DNA of 64,000 nucleotides from an uncultured Bacteroidales bacterium (GTDB lineage: Bacteria; Bacteroidota; Bacteroidia; Bacteroidales; UBA932), in NCBI GenBank assembly GCA_900316795.1, contig ONEF01000003.1, positions 1-64,000 of the forward strand. The letters are read 5' to 3'. Below, in pieces: positions 5,540-32,236 of this stretch. The first letter of the stretch is position 1, and each line of letters opens with the position of its first letter. The notes below the pieces were generated by a model, which saw only the letters and a program-made list of their open reading frames with translations, was not told the origin of the DNA and did not search any database. Made by a program: the position numbers and the translations under genes.

Positions 5540-6637
5540 ATGACAACAGAAGAATTCAAGAGACTCAAAGAAGATGAGTGCAAGAGGCAGAACCCGTACA
5601 AGGTTGTGGACCTTTCGCAGATCCGCATGCTTGGAAAGTCATCCGGAGAAACTCAGACATCAGACAACCAGATGTTTTCAGTATGCGGAGTGAAAACTCT
5701 GGCCAGCCAGGAGGCCGGCCAGGTTCTGGACAAGCTGATCGGGCTTGAGAAAAAGCAGAAGAAAAACGTCAGCGAAGCCTACGGAGAAAACAACATGCAC
5801 GGTTTCTGGAACTACCTGGCAACAGCCACGTCTATGACCAGGGAAACCAAAGTGGCGCTGGTGGCAGACACGAGAAAGAAGATCCTTACCGATGCCGTGG
5901 TGCTCAAGGAGAATCCGATCAACACGGAAGATTTCTTTAATGTAGCGGAACTGTTTATGGACAAGAACAATATGCAGCCGCTTTCTGTGGAAAGAGACCA
6001 CTTTGGCCGCAACGGACTGATGCTCAAGATGAGAAGCGATGCTCCCAAAGTTGTCAAACTGGTTAAGGGAGAAGATTTCGCAACTAATGACTACTACCTT
6101 AAATGGAGCCTGGGAACCATAGAACTTGGCCGTTACTACGTAAGGCTGAGATGCGAGAACGGGCAGATAGACACCTCCTCTCATTCCGTCAGCCGCATAC
6201 ACGCAGTAAATGACATCGCCCTCAAGGCACTGACAGCCATACCTCAAGATAACAATCTGCTTGAGCAGGACTTCAGCCAATTCCGCGAGCACGCTCTTCT
6301 GGCCATGAATACCAAGGCTTCCATCGCAGAGCTGCATTATGTAAGCGCCCTGCTTTCAAATGCCGGCCTGAGAGAAAAGCTCATCAGGGAAATTGCTCCT
6401 TACGAAGACGAACTAAAGCTCTATCAGAGCATGGGACACGACCTTACAGACAAGACTCAACACCTTGCAATGGCGAGCATGACAACCTGGGAACTCTATA
6501 ATAACCTCACGCAGTTTGCCACGCATACGGATCTTTGGGAAAAGTCAGACCACAGGCGCTCCGTGCTTCAAATGGCTGCTACCCGCTTCCTATCAAGGAA
6601 AAGAGACATCAAGCACTACGTGAACATCTTTGAGTAA
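5540..6637 (+). CDS. DUF932-like phage-type protein
   Basis: A 365-residue soluble protein with no signal peptide or membrane segment. The middle part (GLMLKMRSDAPKV, DYYLKWSLGTIELGRYYVR, then LRCENGQIDTSS near residues 200-225) resembles the CTNG signature region of the DUF932/DUF945 family found in phages and plasmids. The match is partial, so I treat the family as tentative. It follows the RecA-like ATPase by 21 nt in the same direction and probably forms an operon with it. The role is unknown; in mobile elements this family is often next to recombination or anti-restriction genes. Confidence 0.5.
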   Translation: MTTEEFKRLKEDECKRQNPYKVVDLSQIRMLGKSSGETQTSDNQMFSVCGVKTLASQEAGQVLDKLIGLEKKQKKNVSEAYGENNMHGFWNYLATATSMTRETKVALVADTRKKILTDAVVLKENPINTEDFFNVAELFMDKNNMQPLSVERDHFGRNGLMLKMRSDAPKVVKLVKGEDFATNDYYLKWSLGTIELGRYYVRLRCENGQIDTSSHSVSRIHAVNDIALKALTAIPQDNNLLEQDFSQFREHALLAMNTKASIAELHYVSALLSNAGLREKLIREIAPYEDELKLYQSMGHDLTDKTQHLAMASMTTWELYNNLTQFATHTDLWEKSDHRRSVLQMAATRFLSRKRDIKHYVNIFE

Positions 6638-18672: not shown

Positions 18673-19134
18673 TTATATCTGCTTGAGGAGGGCGGTGCAA
18701 CCTTTTATCAGATCTTGGTAGGTCTTTTCAAAGTCTCCCGTGTACCAAGGGTCTGCAACATCCCTGTTTTCTCCGGCAAAAGACATCATCAGACGGATTT
18801 TGCCTTCAGGATCATCGGGGATGATACGCTTTATCAAGCGCAGGTTCCACTCGTCCATACAGACAATCAGGTCAAAACGGGCATAGTCTCTGCGGACAAC
18901 CTGGCGGGCTGTCTTGGAGTTGTCAAACGGAATCCCGTGGGCTGAAAGACACCGTTTTGCGGGTGGATATACCGGGTTCCCGATTTCCTCAGTGGAAACA
19001 GCCGCACTCTCTACATACACATCCGGCACCCTACGGTACGCAGCTGCAAGCTTTACCGTACTGCCTTGCTGCACCGTTTCTTCGGAAACCTCTTCCGCTG
19101 CCTTGCGTACCAGATGTTTCAGGATGAACTCTGC
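18673..19134 (-). pseudogene. Decapitated low-molecular-weight tyrosine phosphatase
   Basis: This copy is about 90% or more identical at DNA level to 20745-21284 but begins at the codon for AEFILKHLVRKAAEE; the first 21 or so residues, with the catalytic loop CHGNICRSP, are missing. It keeps the C-terminal acid DPWYTGDFEKTYQD. The break falls at CTGCC, a short sequence shared by both partners, where the frame runs into the promoter of the peptide cassette. Without the P-loop it cannot be a phosphatase. An internal ATG would give a 133-residue product, which I do not think is functional. Confidence 0.8.
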
Positions 19135-19194: not shown

Positions 19195-19347
19195 ATGAAC
19201 GCACTTGACAAAATCACAAACGGACTACCTGCCCCTGTTGGCCAGATTGTAAACATGGCTGCCAACGTCGGAATGAAGGCCGGAACAGCAATCGGCCAAG
19301 AAATATCTAATTGGATAGATGAACTCTTCGGCGATGATAAAAACTGA
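19195..19347 (+). CDS. Cassette 1, gene A: 50-aa amphipathic peptide
   Basis: The peptide begins MNALDKITNGLPAPVGQIVN and has a Gly/Ala-rich helix (NMAANVGMKAGTAIGQEI) and an acidic end (WIDELFGDDKN). It aligns along its length with the 52-residue product at 22437 (shared spacing of KIT, G/AMKAG, IGQ/LGQ, LFG). No known family. The conserved layout of two divergent copies is the evidence that such a short frame is a gene. It could be a membrane-active or structural helix. Confidence 0.65.
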   Translation: MNALDKITNGLPAPVGQIVNMAANVGMKAGTAIGQEISNWIDELFGDDKN

Positions 19348-19415
19348 AAGACTTGATCAAGAAAGTCTCAACAAACACATCAAATTCTTATGCGAAAACA
19401 TGAAAATAAATTATC

Positions 19416-19538
19416 ATGAAAGACATCCTTAAAATTTCAGTAAAGGTTTTTCTTGGCATAGCTGCTCTTGCTGCAGGAGGAACACTCATCAAGAATGCCG
19501 CTAAAGATGCCAACCGTCTTAAGGGGAAAGCCAGCTAA
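19416..19538 (+). CDS. Cassette 1, gene B: 40-aa single-TM peptide
   Basis: The peptide starts MKDILKISVKVFLGIAALAA and has one hydrophobic helix (VFLGIAALAAGGTLI) followed by NAAKDANRLKGKAS. It corresponds to the 39-residue product at 22694 (MKDIAKITLKVFIGIVAIAT, then NNAAKDAATLKEKN). Short size, one TM helix and a basic tail recall phage holins or type I toxins, but I do not recognise a family. Confidence 0.65.
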   Translation: MKDILKISVKVFLGIAALAAGGTLIKNAAKDANRLKGKAS

Positions 19539-19586
19539 ATAACATCGTTATGAATCTTACAACAAACAACTTAAAACATTTCTAAC

Positions 19587-19781
19587 ATGTTTAGAGGATT
19601 CGTAAATGCTACCTGTCAGAACTGCGGTCACAAGTTCACTGCGCCTGACATAGAGAAGAACGCCACAGTCTTCTCGGAACCCGTCAGATGCCCACGTTGC
19701 GGCAAAATGGTACAGGTCGGAGTAGGCTCTGGCAAAAGTTTCTTCGACTACATGCTCGGAAAGCTATTCAAATCTTTATAG
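19587..19781 (+). CDS. Cassette 1, gene C: zinc-ribbon protein
   Basis: A 64-residue protein with two CxxC pairs, CQNCGHKF and CPRCGKMV, about 28 residues apart, forming a likely zinc ribbon. The start MFRGFVNATC matches MLRGFVNAKC of the second copy at 22844. The C-terminal 20 residues (SGKSFFDYMLGKLFKSL) form an amphipathic helix. It follows gene B by 48 nt and ends 4 nt before the next gene. Confidence 0.8.
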   Translation: MFRGFVNATCQNCGHKFTAPDIEKNATVFSEPVRCPRCGKMVQVGVGSGKSFFDYMLGKLFKSL

Positions 19782-20164: not shown

Positions 20165-20208
20165 AAAGGTCCGCAGCATATGCAAAACCTGCGGGCCTTT
20201 TCTTTTTC
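20165..20208 (+). terminator. Intrinsic terminator of cassette 1
   Basis: AAAGGTCCGCAG (20165-20176) pairs with CTGCGGGCCTTT (20189-20200), 12 bp with one G-T pair, followed by TCTTTTTC. Confidence 0.85.
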
Positions 20209-20281
20209 TGAAAACAACAATAAAATTCAGTACGATTTTTGCGGGGGAAACACAGAAAGCAAACCCTTCAACTCAGTTATT

Positions 20282-20704
20282 ATGAAAGCACTTCAACTTC
20301 TGACAATAGTCATCGCGATAATGAGTTACACTTACTCGTTCAACTCATCATATACATCAACATCAAAACCTAACTTACCTCAAAAAGAAATGAAAATCAT
20401 CTCCAATGTAGAAACCAACGGCAGCTGGGTATATCTCTACGACGAGCAAGGCCACCGCTACAAAACCCTATCCGCTTCCAATGTAGGAGAAGTCAAAGGC
20501 TTCAGCTCCACCTTCTTTGTTTCCGAGCACGGCAGCTGGGTATATCTCTGGAACTCCAAGGGCGACAGGTACAAGTTCCTGCCCAAGAGCAACGTAGGAG
20601 ACGTAATTGGCGTAGCCGGCAACACCTTCACTTCCAGAAACGGCCATTGGATTTATACCTGGAGCAGCGACGGCAACCGCATCAACTACCGCCCCGCCCG
20701 CTAA
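20282..20704 (+). CDS. Exported repeat protein of GSWVYL type, copy 1
   Basis: A 140-residue protein. After a signal-like N terminus (MKALQLLTIVIAIMSYTYS) it has three repeats of about 37 residues: NGSWVYLYDEQGHRYKTLSA, then HGSWVYLWNSKGDRYKFLPK, then NGHWIYTWSSDGNRINYRPA, with VGEVKG and VGDVIGV between them. The repeats suggest a small beta-propeller-like or beta-solenoid fold. A close paralogue lies at 31823. I do not recognise the family. The frame is open further upstream but the ATG at 20282 gives the signal peptide. Confidence 0.7.
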   Translation: MKALQLLTIVIAIMSYTYSFNSSYTSTSKPNLPQKEMKIISNVETNGSWVYLYDEQGHRYKTLSASNVGEVKGFSSTFFVSEHGSWVYLWNSKGDRYKFLPKSNVGDVIGVAGNTFTSRNGHWIYTWSSDGNRINYRPAR

Positions 20705-20744: not shown

Positions 20745-21284
20745 TTACGTAATTTTCGTAATGAGCTTCTCCAGCAACGCCCTGCACCCAACCATCAGAT
20801 CCTGGTAGGTCTTTTCAAAGTCTCCCGTGTACCAGGGGTCCGCGACATCCCTGTTTTCTCCGGTGAAAGACATCATAAGGCGGATCTTGCCTTCTGGATC
20901 ATCGGGGATGATACGCTTTATCAGGCGCAGGTTCCATTCGTCCATACAGACAATCAGGTCAAAACGGTCATAGTCTCTGCGGACAACCTGGCGGGCTGTC
21001 TTGAAGTTGTCAAACGGAACCCCGTGGGCTGAAAGACACCGTTTTGCGGGTGGATATACCGGGTTCCCGATTTCTTCAGTGGAAACCGCGGCACTCTCTA
21101 CATACACATCCGGCACCCTACGGTACGCAGCTGCAAGCTTTACCGTACTGCCTTGCGGCACCGCTTCTTCGGTAACCCCTTCCGCGGCCTTGCGTACCAG
21201 ATGTTTAAGGATGAACTCTGCCATCGGGCTTCTGCAGATGTTCCCGTGACATACAAAAAGCACGTTAAATGTTTTGTTTCTCAT
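20745..21284 (-). CDS. Low-molecular-weight protein-tyrosine phosphatase
   Basis: A 179-residue phosphatase with the P-loop VLFVCHGNICRSPMAEF (Cys about 12, Arg about 18) and the general-acid segment DVADPWYTGDFEKTYQD. It is a soluble enzyme that removes phosphate from Tyr residues, often of exopolysaccharide kinases or arginine-phosphorylated proteins. The start codon overlaps the stop of the upstream WYL gene (ATGA), so the two are translationally coupled. A near-identical, headless copy lies at 18673-19134. Confidence 0.9.
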   Translation of the reverse strand: MRNKTFNVLFVCHGNICRSPMAEFILKHLVRKAAEGVTEEAVPQGSTVKLAAAYRRVPDVYVESAAVSTEEIGNPVYPPAKRCLSAHGVPFDNFKTARQVVRRDYDRFDLIVCMDEWNLRLIKRIIPDDPEGKIRLMMSFTGENRDVADPWYTGDFEKTYQDLMVGCRALLEKLITKIT

Positions 21285-22436: not shown

Positions 22437-22595
22437 ATGAAAGAACTTGAAAAAATCACCAGCACCCTGCCTGAGAACACAGTAGCCGTCGTCAACGCAG
22501 CGGCCAAGGCAGGCATGAAGGCCGGAAGCTTTCTCGGCCAAACCATTTCCGACCTGATAGACAGGCTGTTCGGTTCCCAGAAACCAACAAAGTAA
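22437..22595 (+). CDS. Cassette 2, gene A: 52-aa amphipathic peptide
   Basis: The peptide starts MKELEKITSTLPENTVAVVN and continues with AAAKAGMKAGSFLGQ and an end DLIDRLFGSQKPTK. It aligns with gene A of cassette 1 without gaps in the middle, at roughly half identical residues. No known family. It is the first gene after the WYL2 divergent promoter. Confidence 0.65.
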   Translation: MKELEKITSTLPENTVAVVNAAAKAGMKAGSFLGQTISDLIDRLFGSQKPTK

Positions 22596-22693
22596 CTTAA
22601 GAAACTTGCCCAAAAGCACAGACTCACAGCCGGACTGCAACCAAAACTTACAACTGGCTCACAACCATCAACCAAACAAAACCAACAACCATC

Positions 22694-22813
22694 ATGAAAG
22701 ACATTGCAAAAATCACCTTGAAGGTATTCATCGGCATAGTTGCCATCGCCACCGGAGGCGTGCTCCTGAACAACGCGGCCAAAGACGCCGCCACACTCAA
22801 AGAGAAGAACTGA
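22694..22813 (+). CDS. Cassette 2, gene B: 39-aa single-TM peptide
   Basis: One hydrophobic helix (VFIGIVAIATGGVLL) is followed by NNAAKDAATLKEKN. It is the partner of the 40-residue peptide at 19416, with the same start (MKDI.KI) and the same NAAKDA motif. The function is not known. Confidence 0.65.
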   Translation: MKDIAKITLKVFIGIVAIATGGVLLNNAAKDAATLKEKN

Positions 22814-22843
22814 GTTTATTCATCGCGATAAAAAACAGACACC

Positions 22844-23065
22844 ATGCTTAGAGGATTCGTAAACGCAAAGTGCCCCCACTGCGGGCACAGGTTCAAGGCT
22901 CCTGACATTGAAAAGGATGCTTCCATTTATTCAGAACCGGTCAACTGCCCCAACTGCGGCAAGAAAGTGGAGATAGGATTAGGTTCCGGCCAGGACGGCG
23001 ACCTGTTCTCAGGTATTTGGAAAATACTGAAGGACTTGGTCTTCGGCAAGCCTCCTGTCATTTGA
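22844..23065 (+). CDS. Cassette 2, gene C: zinc-ribbon protein
   Basis: A 73-residue protein with CPHCGHRF and CPNCGKKV, the same CxxC-CxxC spacing as at 19587, and a longer C-terminal helix (SGIWKILKDLVFGK). The start MLRGFVNAKC is shared. It precedes the DUF445 gene by 39 nt. Confidence 0.8.
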   Translation: MLRGFVNAKCPHCGHRFKAPDIEKDASIYSEPVNCPNCGKKVEIGLGSGQDGDLFSGIWKILKDLVFGKPPVI

Positions 23066-24007: not shown

Positions 24008-24258
24008 ACGAACCCTCATACTCCAACAAACTCTCCCTTCCGACACCAAAACAATAAACCTAACATCTCGAATAACTAAAAAGCCACAAAATGTTGGGTT
24101 TGAACTTTTTTGAACCTGCAAAATCCGATAGAATTTCCAAACTTTGTATGCAGAAGCAACATTTACCTAAGTCTGCTTCAAAACAAAAAGATTTATGGCA
24201 TTGTTTATCGTAACAACAAAGCGCAAGAAAAACCGATTAGAAACTTAATACATTAACT

Positions 24259-24414
24259 ATGGCAAGGGATGAGAGAACAGTATTTGACCTCGATGAAGAC
24301 GAATACAACGACTATGAAGAACACCCAGAAAACTGGGAAGATGTAACAGAAAACTCATACGAAGATGGATATGATTTAATGTATCCAGACGAAGATTCCA
24401 GACCCGATGATTAA
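24259..24414 (+). CDS. Very acidic 51-aa protein
   Basis: A short frame with about 22 Asp/Glu residues and only two Arg and no Lys (start MARDERTVFDLDEDEYNDYE, end YPDEDSRPDD). No family recognised. It opens the AT-rich insert, and its context before a membrane protein and a radical SAM locus suggests a transferred unit. DNA-mimic or immunity-like roles are possible but speculative. The 250 nt before it contain no other gene I can support. Confidence 0.5.
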   Translation: MARDERTVFDLDEDEYNDYEEHPENWEDVTENSYEDGYDLMYPDEDSRPDD

Positions 24415-24479
24415 AGAATCTACTTTATAAGCTAAACTCTACTCCAATTACCGACATAACATAACTTAAAACTTCAGAT

Positions 24480-24863
24480 ATGGAGAGAACAGTAAAAACA
24501 AAAGAAGAGTTCCAAAAAGCTATTAATGAAAGAGTTGATAGAATTATTATCATAGGCCCGTATGCAGAAGAGCTTATCAGAAAAAAAAGAAAAAAGAAAA
24601 AAAGGTTATTGTGGGGAGGAGCGATACTAACTGCACTTTCTGCTGCAGCAATTCCATTCACATTTGGTGCATCGGCTACTGGAATTGTCGCTGGAATGGG
24701 ACTTACAGCAACAGCAGCAGCAACGCTTACTGTTTCAGCAGCTGAACTAGCTATTTTTTTTGCTGGAGTTATTGGCATAGTTGGTGTTGTTAAGGGCGCT
24801 AAAATAACATGGGATTACAATGATGGTAAATTAGTGGTAGAACCTAAATACAAAGATTCATAA
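24480..24863 (+). CDS. Two-TM protein with Lys-rich segment (127 aa)
   Basis: The N-terminal 40 residues are soluble and end in a basic run (RKKRKKKKR). Two hydrophobic helices follow, LLWGGAILTALSAAAIPF (about 43-60) and LAIFFAGVIGIVGVVKGA (about 91-108), with a Gly/Ala/Thr-rich stretch (ASATGIVAGMGLTATAAATL) between them. No family recognised. AT-rich codon use sets it apart from genes before 24 kb. In a RiPP locus it could be an immunity or export helper, but there is no direct evidence. Confidence 0.6.
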   Translation: MERTVKTKEEFQKAINERVDRIIIIGPYAEELIRKKRKKKKRLLWGGAILTALSAAAIPFTFGASATGIVAGMGLTATAAATLTVSAAELAIFFAGVIGIVGVVKGAKITWDYNDGKLVVEPKYKDS

Positions 24864-24928
24864 AGCAATATAATAAAGTATTATACTTAATCGAAAAACA
24901 TTTTATTAACCATATTAACCTTTCAATT

Positions 24929-25039
24929 ATGAATATTGAGTACACAGTTAAAACTTATGATCCCAAAGAGAAACTCACTCTTGTATGGGGATGTTTCTTT
25001 AGTTGTTGCACACATGTTAACAGAGGAACTGATTATTAA
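24929..25039 (+). CDS. Candidate RiPP precursor peptide (36 aa)
   Basis: A 36-residue frame with an acidic/polar leader (MNIEYTVKTYDPKEKLTL, residues 1-18) and a core containing W20, C22, C26 and C27 (VWGCFFSCCTHVNRGTDY, residues 19-36). It ends 9 nt before the radical SAM start codon, the classic place for a precursor. No GG-type leader cleavage site is present, so it is not a bacteriocin of the GG class. It is not a known precursor family to me. Likely modifications are thioether or cyclophane crosslinks at Cys, Trp or Phe. Confidence 0.6.
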   Translation: MNIEYTVKTYDPKEKLTLVWGCFFSCCTHVNRGTDY

Positions 25040-25048
25040 TTTGTGAAC

Positions 25049-26383
25049 ATGAAAAAGAGCATATCTGTTCCACTTGGAAAACTCTACCAGTTTCCTCAAT
25101 GGAAACTGGTAGAGTTTTCTAAAAAGTATCTCATCATCTTTCCAGAAACTGCAAAGTGGATAGTTTTGGATAACAAAGCCCAGGTTAATTTCTTTATTAA
25201 TCTTAATAACCAATCTTTAAAAAAAGCATTAGCAATTTCCACAAATGTACCTAAAGAAGATTATGAAAATGTAATTACACAGATTGAAGCTAGAAATGTA
25301 TTAGACACAGAGGTTGTCAGTTCTAACAAAGGTGAAAAATCCATGCATTTTTATTTGACCAATGCATGCAATTTGCGTTGCCCGCACTGCTACATGTTTG
25401 CTGGTATTAAGCACCATGACGAACTTACGTATAAATCAATTATTACTATTCTGAAGGCATTCAAACAAAACAAGGGAAAACGCGTTAATTTTTCGGGGGG
25501 AGAAATAGGACTAAGATCTGATCTTGTTGATATTGTCAGATATTCTAAACATTTAGGTCTAAATAATAACCTGCTAACAAATGGTACTCTATGGACAAAG
25601 GAACTTATTTCTGAAATTTCTCCTTTCGTTGATTCCGTACAAATTAGTATAGACGGTTATTCAGAAACCACAAATGCTTTGATTAGAGGAAAGGGGAACT
25701 TTATGAGAGCCTTAGAATGTGCTGAAACTTTCATCAGATTCAAAGTCGACACAACAATTGCAGTTACTCCATTGTGGAACAAAAATCTGAAGACCGAAAT
25801 AAAGCATTACTTAGACTTTGCAAAAGAGTTATCTGCTAAATATTCTGATTGTGATTTATTTCATATCAGATTCTCAGCTGAAATGTTAGACGGAAGAAAA
25901 GTAAAATTAACGGATAAAGAAAGAAAAGAGTACAATGAAACAATGCTTAGTTTGTTTTCAAGCTATCATGAAACAGACATGTCTTTGTATCCCTTTGTAA
26001 TGCAAAGAAGAAGCAATATTATACTAGACAATTGTCTATATGGAGAATTGGCTGTTTCTTCCAATGGTGATGCATACTGTTGTTCAAGAATCGGCGATGT
26101 TTCAAAAATTGGTAATTTTAAAACGGACAACATAGAGATAATATTTAAAGCTCTTGAAAAAGCTTCATTCCTTTCAAATATTAATAATCTCAAACCATGT
26201 TGTTCTTGTGAGCTTAAATATATATGTGGAGGAGGCTGTAGAATTGATTACTTCAAGACACTTATTAAAAACAACCCTCTTTCTTTGGAATCATATGATA
26301 TACCACCACGTAAATGCGGGAAGGAAAACAAAAGGATTCTTTACGACTTAATGCTCAAAACCAATAGATTAATATTCCAATGA
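25049..26383 (+). CDS. Radical SAM/SPASM peptide maturase
   Basis: A 444-residue enzyme starting at ATG 25049. Residues 1-90 (LYQFPQWKLVEFS, ITQIEARNVLD) look like a PqqD-type peptide-recognition region. The radical SAM cluster is C107-x3-C111-x2-C114 (CNLRCPHC), followed by NFSGGEIGLR and LLTNGTLW. The C-terminal SPASM domain has CLYGELAVSSNGDAYCC, then KPCCSCELKYICGGGCR, which bind auxiliary Fe-S clusters. It should modify the peptide encoded at 24929. The gene is visibly AT-rich compared with its surroundings, pointing to transfer. No transporter or protease is found next to it. Confidence 0.9.
   Translation: MKKSISVPLGKLYQFPQWKLVEFSKKYLIIFPETAKWIVLDNKAQVNFFINLNNQSLKKALAISTNVPKEDYENVITQIEARNVLDTEVVSSNKGEKSMHFYLTNACNLRCPHCYMFAGIKHHDELTYKSIITILKAFKQNKGKRVNFSGGEIGLRSDLVDIVRYSKHLGLNNNLLTNGTLWTKELISEISPFVDSVQISIDGYSETTNALIRGKGNFMRALECAETFIRFKVDTTIAVTPLWNKNLKTEIKHYLDFAKELSAKYSDCDLFHIRFSAEMLDGRKVKLTDKERKEYNETMLSLFSSYHETDMSLYPFVMQRRSNIILDNCLYGELAVSSNGDAYCCSRIGDVSKIGNFKTDNIEIIFKALEKASFLSNINNLKPCCSCELKYICGGGCRIDYFKTLIKNNPLSLESYDIPPRKCGKENKRILYDLMLKTNRLIFQ
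25077..25119 (+). repeat. Perfect 19-bp hairpin inside the radical SAM start
   Basis: GAAAACTCTACCAGTTTCC (25077-25095) pairs perfectly with GGAAACTGGTAGAGTTTTC (25101-25119) around TCAAT. It falls in codons 10-24 of the enzyme gene, 38 nt after the precursor stop. In mRNA it would be a very stable stem and could limit translation or stabilise the upstream precursor message. Confidence 0.85.
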
Positions 26384-26710
26384 TTCATACATTTTTTTTG
26401 AGATACCGTCGTGGAAACGAAATTTAAGACACCTGGTAATACACTATCCAACAATAATCTCCTATGAAAAGAACATTGCTGTCCGGATCAATTAATCATG
26501 ATATAAGCGTCCAGACATATACCTTCTTCAGGAGCAACTATATGATGGTATTCAATACAATACTGCAAAACAATGAGTTCTAATCAAAAAAATACCTAAA
26601 CCATATAAGTCATTTAAATTAAATTATTTACAAACAGCTGAAGAACTTTTCTCCGGACTGAAGTATATTCCCTTATATATTCTTCGACTCGTGATTTATG
26701 TATAGTGATC
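26384..26710 (+). other. Gene-poor 327-nt stretch with short broken frames
   Basis: An ATG overlaps the radical SAM stop (ATGA) and reads MIHTFFLRYRRGNEI before a TAA, as if a coupled third gene were cut short. Further on, ATG 26464 opens a 39-residue frame (MKRTLLSGSINHD...) to 26583. Other frames hold short runs only. This may be the decayed end of the RiPP locus; I cannot support a gene here. Confidence 0.4.
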
Positions 26711-27238
26711 ATGTCACAGATAAATAGTTTTGCAAAAGCCATCCAGGCCAGGACCGGATGGTCGGACGCCATCATAAACTCGCTGAGTTCAGTTGAGGAG
26801 GCGGAAATCTATATCAAGGCAGGGCTGAAGGAAGCCGTGATTGGCGGAAGGCCGGCTCTGGTAAGAACAGATATAGACTGGGCAGATTACAGCATAAGGC
26901 GCAACACTTGGCTAAGGGATTCTCCTCAGCAGGGGCTGAAGGACTATGACAAGTGGGCCGAATACAACAATGCAGATCTCATCGGTGAAGGATACCCTCC
27001 AAGAGACAAGAATGGAGACCCTTACGAACTTCACCACATAGGGCAGAAGCAGGACTCCCCTCTTGCCGAGCTTACCTGGGCCGAGCACATGGGAAACGGC
27101 AACAACAAGATTCTGCACCAGGCAGGCAAGGAGTCTGAAATCTACCGCGATGTTTTTGACAAAGAGAAGTCATACTACTGGCAGGCAAGGTTCAGGGCTT
27201 TCAGCAAGGCTGAGCTGGAGAGGATATATCATCGCTGA
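26711..27238 (+). CDS. LHH-type HNH/EndoVII nuclease, stand-alone
   Basis: A 175-residue protein (ATG 26711; a GTG at 26705 is also in frame). The C-terminal half has DPYELHHIGQKQDSPLAEL with His108-His109, the signature of the LHH family of HNH/ENDO VII nucleases, and TWAEHMGNGNNKILHQ. This domain is usually the toxic tip of polymorphic toxins or a contact-dependent toxin. Here it has only a short N-terminal part (AKAIQARTGWSDAIINSL) and no export domain. No immunity gene is recognisable beside it. It may be an orphan toxin cartridge or a domestic nuclease. Confidence 0.75.
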   Translation: MSQINSFAKAIQARTGWSDAIINSLSSVEEAEIYIKAGLKEAVIGGRPALVRTDIDWADYSIRRNTWLRDSPQQGLKDYDKWAEYNNADLIGEGYPPRDKNGDPYELHHIGQKQDSPLAELTWAEHMGNGNNKILHQAGKESEIYRDVFDKEKSYYWQARFRAFSKAELERIYHR

Positions 27239-31732: not shown

Positions 31733-31822
31733 AAAAGCTTTTCGGCTGTATTACATAAAACAAATTTACGAAAATTATCCCACCGTTATTTGCTTAAAAG
31801 CTTTCATTATATTTGTATTGTT

Positions 31823-32236
31823 ATGGGAAAGATATTTACTATTCAAATAGCGCTGGTTTGTTTTCTGGCAGGTTTTATTTCTGCCGGTAATAATTTAGGT
31901 ATGCCATCAGAACAAAAACAAGAACATATGATTTCAAGTGTGGAGACTAACGGAAGCTGGGTGCATTTGTATGATGAAAAGGGAAACAAGTACAGGACAC
32001 TGACTGCTAGTTACGTAGGAGAGGTAAAGGGCTGGAGCTCAACATTCTTCGTTTCCAGAAACGGCAGTTGGGTTTACCTTTGGGACAGCAAGGGAGAGAA
32101 ATACAAAACCCTGAGTTACTCATACGTGGGAGATGTAATTGGAGTTGCAGGAGACACTTTTACCTCCCGCAACGGCAGCTGGATTTACACCTGGAACAGA
32201 AAAGGAGAAAAAATCAACACCCGAACGGCCCGTTAA
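31823..32236 (+). CDS. Exported repeat protein of GSWVYL type, copy 2
   Basis: A 137-residue paralogue of 20282-20704. The signal peptide is IFTIQIALVCFLAGFISAG. Three repeats follow: NGSWVHLYDEKGNKYRTLTA, NGSWVYLWDSKGEKYKTLSY and NGSWIYTWNRKGEKINTRTA, with VGEVKGW and VGDVIGV between. A TATATTTG box (31808-31815) ends 7 nt before the ATG. The ybaK gene starts 1 nt after the stop. Confidence 0.7.
   Translation: MGKIFTIQIALVCFLAGFISAGNNLGMPSEQKQEHMISSVETNGSWVHLYDEKGNKYRTLTASYVGEVKGWSSTFFVSRNGSWVYLWDSKGEKYKTLSYSYVGDVIGVAGDTFTSRNGSWIYTWNRKGEKINTRTAR

Follow-up and report, generated by a model that had tools for sequence, protein, structure and literature searches.

The 64,000-nucleotide window studied here (positions 1 to 64,000 of contig ONEF01000003.1, assembly GCA_900316795.1) belongs to an uncultured Bacteroidales bacterium of gut type and contains a 36-codon open reading frame (ORF) followed by the gene of a radical S-adenosylmethionine (SAM) enzyme with a SPASM domain (Table 1). 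A like pairing is also found in distant bacteria. The ORF encodes W20, C22, C26 and C27 and its stop codon lies 9 nt ahead of the enzyme ATG at 25049; this arrangement, described in the original prediction made from the letters of the window, was verified for coordinates and cysteine motifs. Both genes are considered below as a candidate locus for a ribosomally synthesized and post-translationally modified peptide (RiPP). The window peptide could be divided into a leader of about residues 1-19 and a core of about residues 20-36 (WGCFFSCCTHVNRGTDY).

Table 1. Features at the candidate RiPP locus, in coordinates of the window. RRE, RiPP recognition element; pLDDT, predicted local distance difference test.
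Feature	Position	Strand	Evidence
Candidate precursor peptide ORF, 36 aa, MNIEYTVKTYDPKEKLTLVWGCFFSCCTHVNRGTDY	24929..25039	+	Counterparts beside 16/16 homologous enzymes; alignment A3
Candidate radical SAM/SPASM maturase, 444 aa; alternative GTG start at 25043 possible	25049..26383	+	Pfam Radical_SAM, 77.5 bits
RRE-like (PqqD-like) domain, residues 19-81	25103..25291	+	AlphaFold2 model, local pLDDT mostly 88-96
Hairpin of 22 bp with a 5-nt loop; enzyme-gene codons 9-25, 35 nt past the stop of the candidate precursor	25074..25122	+	Stem search and shuffle folding
AT-rich cargo, GC 0.336, lying between the DUF445 and LHH-domain genes	24148..26750	.	Swapped for other genes in sister genome G264
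127-aa protein, hydrophobic middle and Lys/Arg-rich patch	24480..24863	+	Homologue in L037 (37% over 94 aa)
51-aa acidic protein, upstream cargo	24259..24414	+	No match in NCBIfam, or in Pfam above the cut-off

Homologous enzymes were retained at 16 loci (the window, L037 to L047, L053, L063, which holds L060, L064, which holds L061, and L091), or 15 if the near-copies L039 and L040 are counted once, and these loci span three phyla, with carriers in Bacteroidota, Bacillota and Treponema. Homologous enzymes lacking a conserved upstream peptide had been named beforehand as the outcome that would speak against the prediction; instead, a same-strand peptide of 30 to 44 aa was found beside the enzyme at all 16 loci, using a relaxed pattern written after the peptides had been seen. 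L041 and L053 hold two peptides each, giving 18 in total. The predicted position upstream of the enzyme applies to nine loci (the window, L037, L038, L043, L045, L046, L047, L063 and L091), and in the other seven (L039, L040, L041, L042, L044, L053 and L064) the peptide is downstream. The peptides share a leader of the form M-x-[I/L]-x-[Y/F/W]-x-[V/I/L/P], the L038 start being longer. In the window peptide this corresponds to the strand motif I3-x-Y5-x-V7, which the prediction did not contain; GG is absent from this peptide, as it had stated. The core reads C[F/Y/W]xxC in 13 of the 18 peptides, C[S/G]CW in four (L039, L040, L042 and L064) and GGCYYTFKNC in the second peptide of L053. Cysteine is followed by an aromatic residue in 18/18, partly by construction of the pattern. 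In window numbering C22 and an aromatic residue at 23 are conserved, as is C26 in most cases and C27 often. The W-G-C...S-C-C pattern proposed from the window alone is too narrow, since five loci depart from the strict CxxxC and W20 varies among the homologues, for which reason W20 was discarded as a motif residue.

These peptides were recovered by several routes. A first search for C-x2/3-CC in short frames returned adjacent peptides in 5 of 11 loci (L041, L043, L045, L046 and L047); the L037 peptide escaped this search through the length filter and was picked up manually where a longer frame ends, and those of L038, L044 and L053 were identified after this search and before the strict pattern was set. 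When set, the strict pattern fitted 10/13 loci, with no match in 273,299 control bases and two in 711,066 Markov bases. One of the three loci added afterwards fits it (L060), L061 and L091 having only the wider form, so that the final count is 11/16 loci. Control DNA of 283,395 bases held no strict and four relaxed matches. From L061 the second core type became known, and L039, L040 and L042 then proved to have it too, downstream of the enzyme. An 86-aa ORF with CYDCC and a 19-aa ORF with a GTG start, considered until then as possible precursors in L039/L040, were dropped once the downstream CSCW peptides had been located.

Alignment of the window peptide with the 16 other peptides compared gave z values, against shuffles, of 9.0-15.5 for L047, L060, L043 and L046 and of 4.2-6.4 for seven others. 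A like peptide beside each of 16 enzymes, together with z values reaching 15.5, makes the pairing more than chance. A profile built from 11 peptides and searched in 13 genomes or records matched ten of them at 7.6e-10 or better, each time beside the enzyme, the next match anywhere being at 0.019. Nine of these ten had fed the profile, G1428 being the sole genome matched independently, and the three genomes or records with CxCW cores gave no match. The absence of a known precursor family, as predicted, was borne out by searches of 12 distinct peptides against NCBIfam and eight against Pfam, in which no fitting model was found; the L045 peptide had three irrelevant weak NCBIfam matches (E 0.022-0.03). 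The window peptide itself had no NCBIfam or Pfam match at E up to 1, a threshold at which HMMER filters may hide very weak matches.

Three of these loci have peculiarities of their own. In L053 (11465-11749), on the Treponema plasmid pTS1, two candidate precursors with near-identical leaders (MVLTWNV and MTLTWNV) and different cores are not among the listed genes of the record. In L037 (4947-5885) a 312-aa membrane-protein ORF runs in frame, with no stop, into the peptide (internal ATG at 5775), and 40 nt in this region are 87.5% identical to DNA preceding the L045 peptide; this may be a fusion or a cassette junction. In L041 (7291-8382) a frame that by eye resembles an IS630-type transposase separates the enzyme from its two peptides.

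The window enzyme carries the radical SAM motif CX3CX2C as C107/C111/C114, followed by seven SPASM cysteines (C329, C345, C384, C387, C393, C397 and C423). All ten are kept in 9/9 full-length rows of alignment A2, a count that leaves out L053, L060, L061 and L091, and the spacing read from the alignment, CX3CX2C and then C-x9-15-G-x4-C ... C-x2-C-x5-C-x3-C ... C, matches the SPASM arrangement. In an AlphaFold2 model (12-row alignment, mean pLDDT 86.3), the N-terminal region that had been called PqqD-like forms three strands (19-23, 26-31 and 36-40) and three helices (43-54, 57-63 and 69-81), and this RRE-like domain is presumed to be the leader-binding site. Foldseek placed SkfB, SuiB and CteB at the top for the model, with TM-scores near 0.5 and 17-19% identity. 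The nearest solved proteins by sequence profile were SkfB (2.9e-33), CteB (6.2e-21) and PqqE (1.8e-18). Among the best 25 of 67 NCBIfam matches all remained under their own cut-offs; the SkfB model gave 68.3 bits (cut-off 300) and that of the ranthipeptide enzyme PapB 57.1 of 340 bits, so that neither family score was reached.

An enzyme tree of 15 family rows and two outgroups, which leaves out L091, was labelled by CxxxCC core, CxCW core or linkage to an SNF2 helicase. The labels require three changes, compared with a mean of 6.4 after shuffling, and none of 200 shuffles was that low. No other stem with a 3-10 nt loop in the 64 kb is as long as that of the window hairpin, the runner-up having 17 bp, and the region of this hairpin folds at z -4.59, with 0/200 shuffles as stable. 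When the stretches following the 18 peptide stops were surveyed (the L060 site being used in place of L063), 12 had z of -2 or lower and 10 had a stem matched by at most four of 60 shuffles; the stems of L039 and L040 have four differences, which make up two compensated pairs. Hairpins behind genes are common, so that this evidence is weak alone, and the position of the window hairpin inside the enzyme gene is less usual. It may act as an expression or mRNA-stability element, by which the output of peptide would be held above that of enzyme.

We read the locus as a member of an undescribed radical SAM RiPP family, in which the 36-aa ORF encodes the precursor and the adjacent gene its radical SAM/SPASM maturase, and give this reading a probability of about 85%. 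The original prediction is supported in its central claim. That the two genes form a precursor-maturase pair is very probable; given such a pair, a cysteine thioether cross-link is the somewhat favored product. The N-terminal strand of the peptide (I-x-Y-x-V) would dock on the RRE-like domain, and the radical SAM cluster would generate a 5'-deoxyadenosyl radical that pulls a hydrogen off a residue of the core. A core cysteine may be held by one or both of the SPASM auxiliary clusters, the resulting thioether closing a tight ring in W-G-C-F-x-x-C-C, and the leader would be cut off by a host protease encoded elsewhere. The sequences themselves show the pairing, the common leader, the Cys-aromatic core, the domain make-up with its cluster ligands, the hairpin and the variable site; leader binding, bond type, leader removal, the part played by the hairpin and what the product does are inferred.

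Several observations weigh against this reading. The loci themselves served to fit the relaxed pattern, and five extra matches inside them look like chance. With the second L053 peptide and those of L040, L042, L064 and L091, the window peptide aligns at z 0.8-2.4, which is shuffle-like to modest, so that the second core type is tied to the family by the form of its leader and by its position, and not by overall similarity. Codon changes indicate little constraint, both between L047 and L060 (9 synonymous and 8 non-synonymous of 36) and between the two L041 copies (9 synonymous and 11 non-synonymous of 37). No hairpin, or only an ordinary one, is present at the two L041 sites, behind the first L053 peptide and at L044. 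In the enzyme tree the labels are clustered without forming clean clades, because only four of the 14 inner branches have good support and L041 falls together with L061. Finally, among the 16 proteins of the window that were scanned (17.5 to 34.4 kb) no transporter or peptidase domain was found, nor any exporter, leader protease or immunity gene.

The alternative that survives best retains the pair and changes the chemistry: the cross-link would be carbon-carbon or aromatic, of a cyclophane- or streptide-like kind, or the conserved aromatic residue would be altered in some other way, leaving the cysteines free or in disulfides. The aromatic residue immediately after cysteine in all peptides would suit it, as would the second rank of SuiB in the Foldseek results, but cysteine is more constant than any single aromatic identity, the thioether-forming SkfB and CteB rank first by sequence profile, and a cysteine in every substrate fits thioether chemistry better; we regard this alternative as unlikely, if still worth attention. 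SPASM enzymes serve other substrates too, as anSME does, and the radical SAM protein could act on a small molecule or another protein, the peptide being unrelated cargo. The presence of anSME structures in the Foldseek list and the location of the locus in variable cargo agree with this, but peptide and enzyme occur together in 16/16 loci of three phyla and the core type tracks the enzyme tree, which leaves the idea highly improbable. Least credible of all is that the short ORF is a translated regulatory leader, or attenuator, of the enzyme gene, as its position directly upstream in 9/16 loci and the hairpin after many of them might suggest, given that the peptide is downstream in 7/16 loci, that the leader pattern, M-x-[I/L]-x-aromatic included, is kept at the protein level, that L041 and L053 have two copies each and that the modelled enzyme has an RRE-like domain.

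The candidate precursor-maturase pair was compared with known systems. SkfB/SkfA, which makes the sporulation killing factor sactipeptide of Bacillus, is alike in combining an RRE (RRE-like in the modelled window enzyme), a radical SAM domain and a C-terminal Fe-S domain and in having a cysteine-containing substrate adjoining the enzyme, and it is the top solved match by both profile and fold. According to PMC8172795, these solved relatives hold the leader by means of an RRE, SkfB and CteB form cysteine thioethers, and SkfB possesses a twitch domain carrying a [2Fe-2S] cluster, in contrast to the seven-cysteine SPASM pattern of the window enzyme. Unlike in skf, no similar protease or exporter occurs among the 16 window neighbors scanned. 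A small cluster made up of precursor and radical SAM enzyme is also the arrangement of the streptosactin maturase of Streptococcus, known as StsB or GggB. The StsB model is the top one among the best 25 of 67 NCBIfam matches, but the window enzyme, at 109.3 bits, is far under its cut-off of 625; the Treponema enzyme reaches 146.7 bits. Streptosactin joins Cys15 to Ser28 and Cys31 to Gly34 and its cluster includes a protease, as stated in PMC8172795, whereas the core of the present peptides is compact and Cys-aromatic. CteB/CteA of the ranthipeptides (SCIFF) shares the radical SAM domain, a two-cluster SPASM domain and a Cys-rich substrate, and has an RRE where an RRE-like domain is modelled here, CteB being second by profile. 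CteA differs by its leader and by having far more cysteines, and the window peptide does not match TIGR03973, which PMC13289728 gives as the precursor rule for SCIFF-type ranthipeptides.

RiPP clusters from the same order, Bacteroidales, have radical SAM enzymes with RRE-like N-termini adjoining short peptides; in PMC10352776, most of their precursors have a GG-type leader and 7/9 clusters a peptidase-containing ATP-binding transporter (PCAT). Neither was seen here, the window peptide being without GG and no C39 transporter being found among the 16 proteins scanned. The FxSxx modules described in PMC7159879 likewise combine a peptide with a radical SAM/SPASM enzyme in a conflict-type setting, but with another motif and other partners; an SNF2 helicase accompanies 3/16 of the present loci, and no VMAP ternary type was seen. 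In the open-access literature, where peptide motifs are not word-searchable, no description was found of this peptide family or of an SNF2-linked SPASM RiPP enzyme. An apparently undescribed precursor/maturase family, with a searchable leader signature, would be added to the radical SAM RiPPs. A single leader and enzyme lineage that serves two or more core types, among them CxxxC(C) and CxCW, would offer a natural case for the separate evolution of leader recognition and core chemistry.

The neighbors of the pair differ between loci. An SNF2 helicase gene directly follows the enzyme in L038, L044 and L053; in L044 and L053 a methyltransferase comes after the helicase and the peptide right after the methyltransferase, while the L038 contig stops shortly past the helicase. 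In PADLOC the DpdE and ZorD models strongly match the Treponema helicase across its helicase part, and an FRG-domain gene upstream matches a candidate defence family. CxCW peptides are accompanied by a 296-aa protein, present in full in L040 and L064 and, in L042, cut off by the contig end just after its start. It has no Pfam match (E up to 10), no NCBIfam match (E up to 0.01) and no meaningful PDB match, and its single-sequence fold (pLDDT 38.5) is too poor for use; its look may be U32-peptidase-like. The window neighborhood holds no SNF2 helicase, methyltransferase, FRG-domain gene or 296-aa protein. The helicase placement, the methyltransferase-precursor order, the Treponema FRG-domain gene, the lack of an exporter seen near the window gene and the swapping of cargo would fit a peptide acting inside the cell in a mobile conflict or defence module, not as a secreted bacteriocin, a role that we nevertheless consider doubtful. 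One leader-recognising enzyme lineage would be shuffled among islands with differing effectors, namely a ZorD/DpdE-like SNF2 helicase (with a methyltransferase in two of three such loci) or the 296-aa protein, none of them in the window, and the cross-linked Cys-aromatic peptide would serve as sensor, toxin or cofactor. A role other than antibiosis could be put directly to the test through the link with the helicase in Bacillota and Treponema. As to the enzyme, identity with a known defence system was rejected because similarity is limited to the core domain: prokaryotic viperin gave 77.7 of 180 bits over residues 97-212 only, and PADLOC pVip covered residues 100-225 only.

Enzymes of this kind are rare. 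In its own genome (2.32 Mb, 27 contigs) the gene is single-copy, two further matches being generic radical SAM proteins at 25-27% identity. The 398 genomes of the family contain one standout homologue (G087, 42%), the rest being weaker radical SAM proteins, and among 395 genomes of the phylum five pass 1e-15 including the own one, the other four at 25-33% identity. Searches with an alignment profile found 2/393 genomes in the order (the own one and G1058, the genome of L047), 1/295 in the class (the own one), 3/31 in the family of G1058, 1/19 in the genus of G087 and 3/125 in the genus of the L044 genome. The GTDB contig scan, a single run with two short patterns that is far from complete, returned 13 loci, of which 11 were kept at an identity of at least 36%. 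A Treponema saccharophilum plasmid has a homologue at 35.7% over the whole length. Phage records had no enzyme match and viral contigs only three loci at 23% identity, which were dropped, and with them a phage or viral origin. Also set aside before counting were L048 and L049 (23-24% identity), L050-L052, L054 on a Moraxella plasmid with three other plasmid matches (23-28%), L033-L036 and L005-L032 (distant radical SAM) and L089/L092 (partial match, different neighborhood by eye). L004/L062 duplicate L045, L058/L059 duplicate L047, and L060 and L061 are the cores of L063 and L064. The L045 and L046 enzymes are truncated where their contigs end, and the L043 gene is frameshifted near 6312 in the assembly, its second piece alone being aligned. 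L092 (G1575:C8) represents another kind of radical SAM cluster, in which, by eye, a 96-aa PqqD-like ORF is joined by a further radical SAM-like ORF and by ABC transporter-like genes. L091 (G1490:C165) has a small ORF like one in Bacteroidales L042, yet its genome is in the genus of the L044 Ruminococcus, a possible misbinning.

The AT-rich composition against the neighbors, from which transfer had been suggested, was confirmed: the cargo compares with a GC of 0.478 for the whole window. The adjacent DUF445 gene was found, at 1e-60 or better, in one of 39 other genomes of the genus (G264, 98%), where the stretch between it and the LHH-domain gene contains a GTPase-like gene and others, with a GC likewise of 0.336. 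In 11 of 12 other family loci the enzyme gene is lower in GC than its surroundings, L044 being the exception. Transfer of the AT-rich cargo is supported by this single sister-genome comparison. A pattern search for Bacteroidota-type promoter boxes found none, and a sigma-70 scan scored under the shuffle level.

Within the cargo, the 127-aa protein may be a passenger or accessory. A homologue besides that in L037 lies at L090. As a fixed partner the protein was rejected because its homologues are rare (among 119 genomes in the own one alone, among 149 in the own one and G845) and the G845 contig with this homologue has none of these enzymes within the 8,521 bases read. The 51-aa acidic ORF is weakly similar to acidic ORFs of L047, L060 and L041; with p values of only 0.0175-0.14 against shuffles, it was dropped as a shared component. 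Directly after the cargo, at 26705-27238, the LHH-domain nuclease gene (PF14411, 69.2 bits), possibly of toxin type, is kept in G264. Elsewhere in the window, three small genes (one of about 50 aa, one hydrophobic and of about 40 aa, one zinc-ribbon-like) form a group that is present twice, at 19195-19781 and 22437-23065, and an ORF resembling its zinc-ribbon-like member occurs in L037 at 3274. A low-molecular-weight phosphatase gene is duplicated on the minus strand (18673-19074 and 20745-21284), one copy being shorter, and the products of 20180-20704 and 31790-32236 are a paralogous pair with repeated NGSWVYLY/W-type units.
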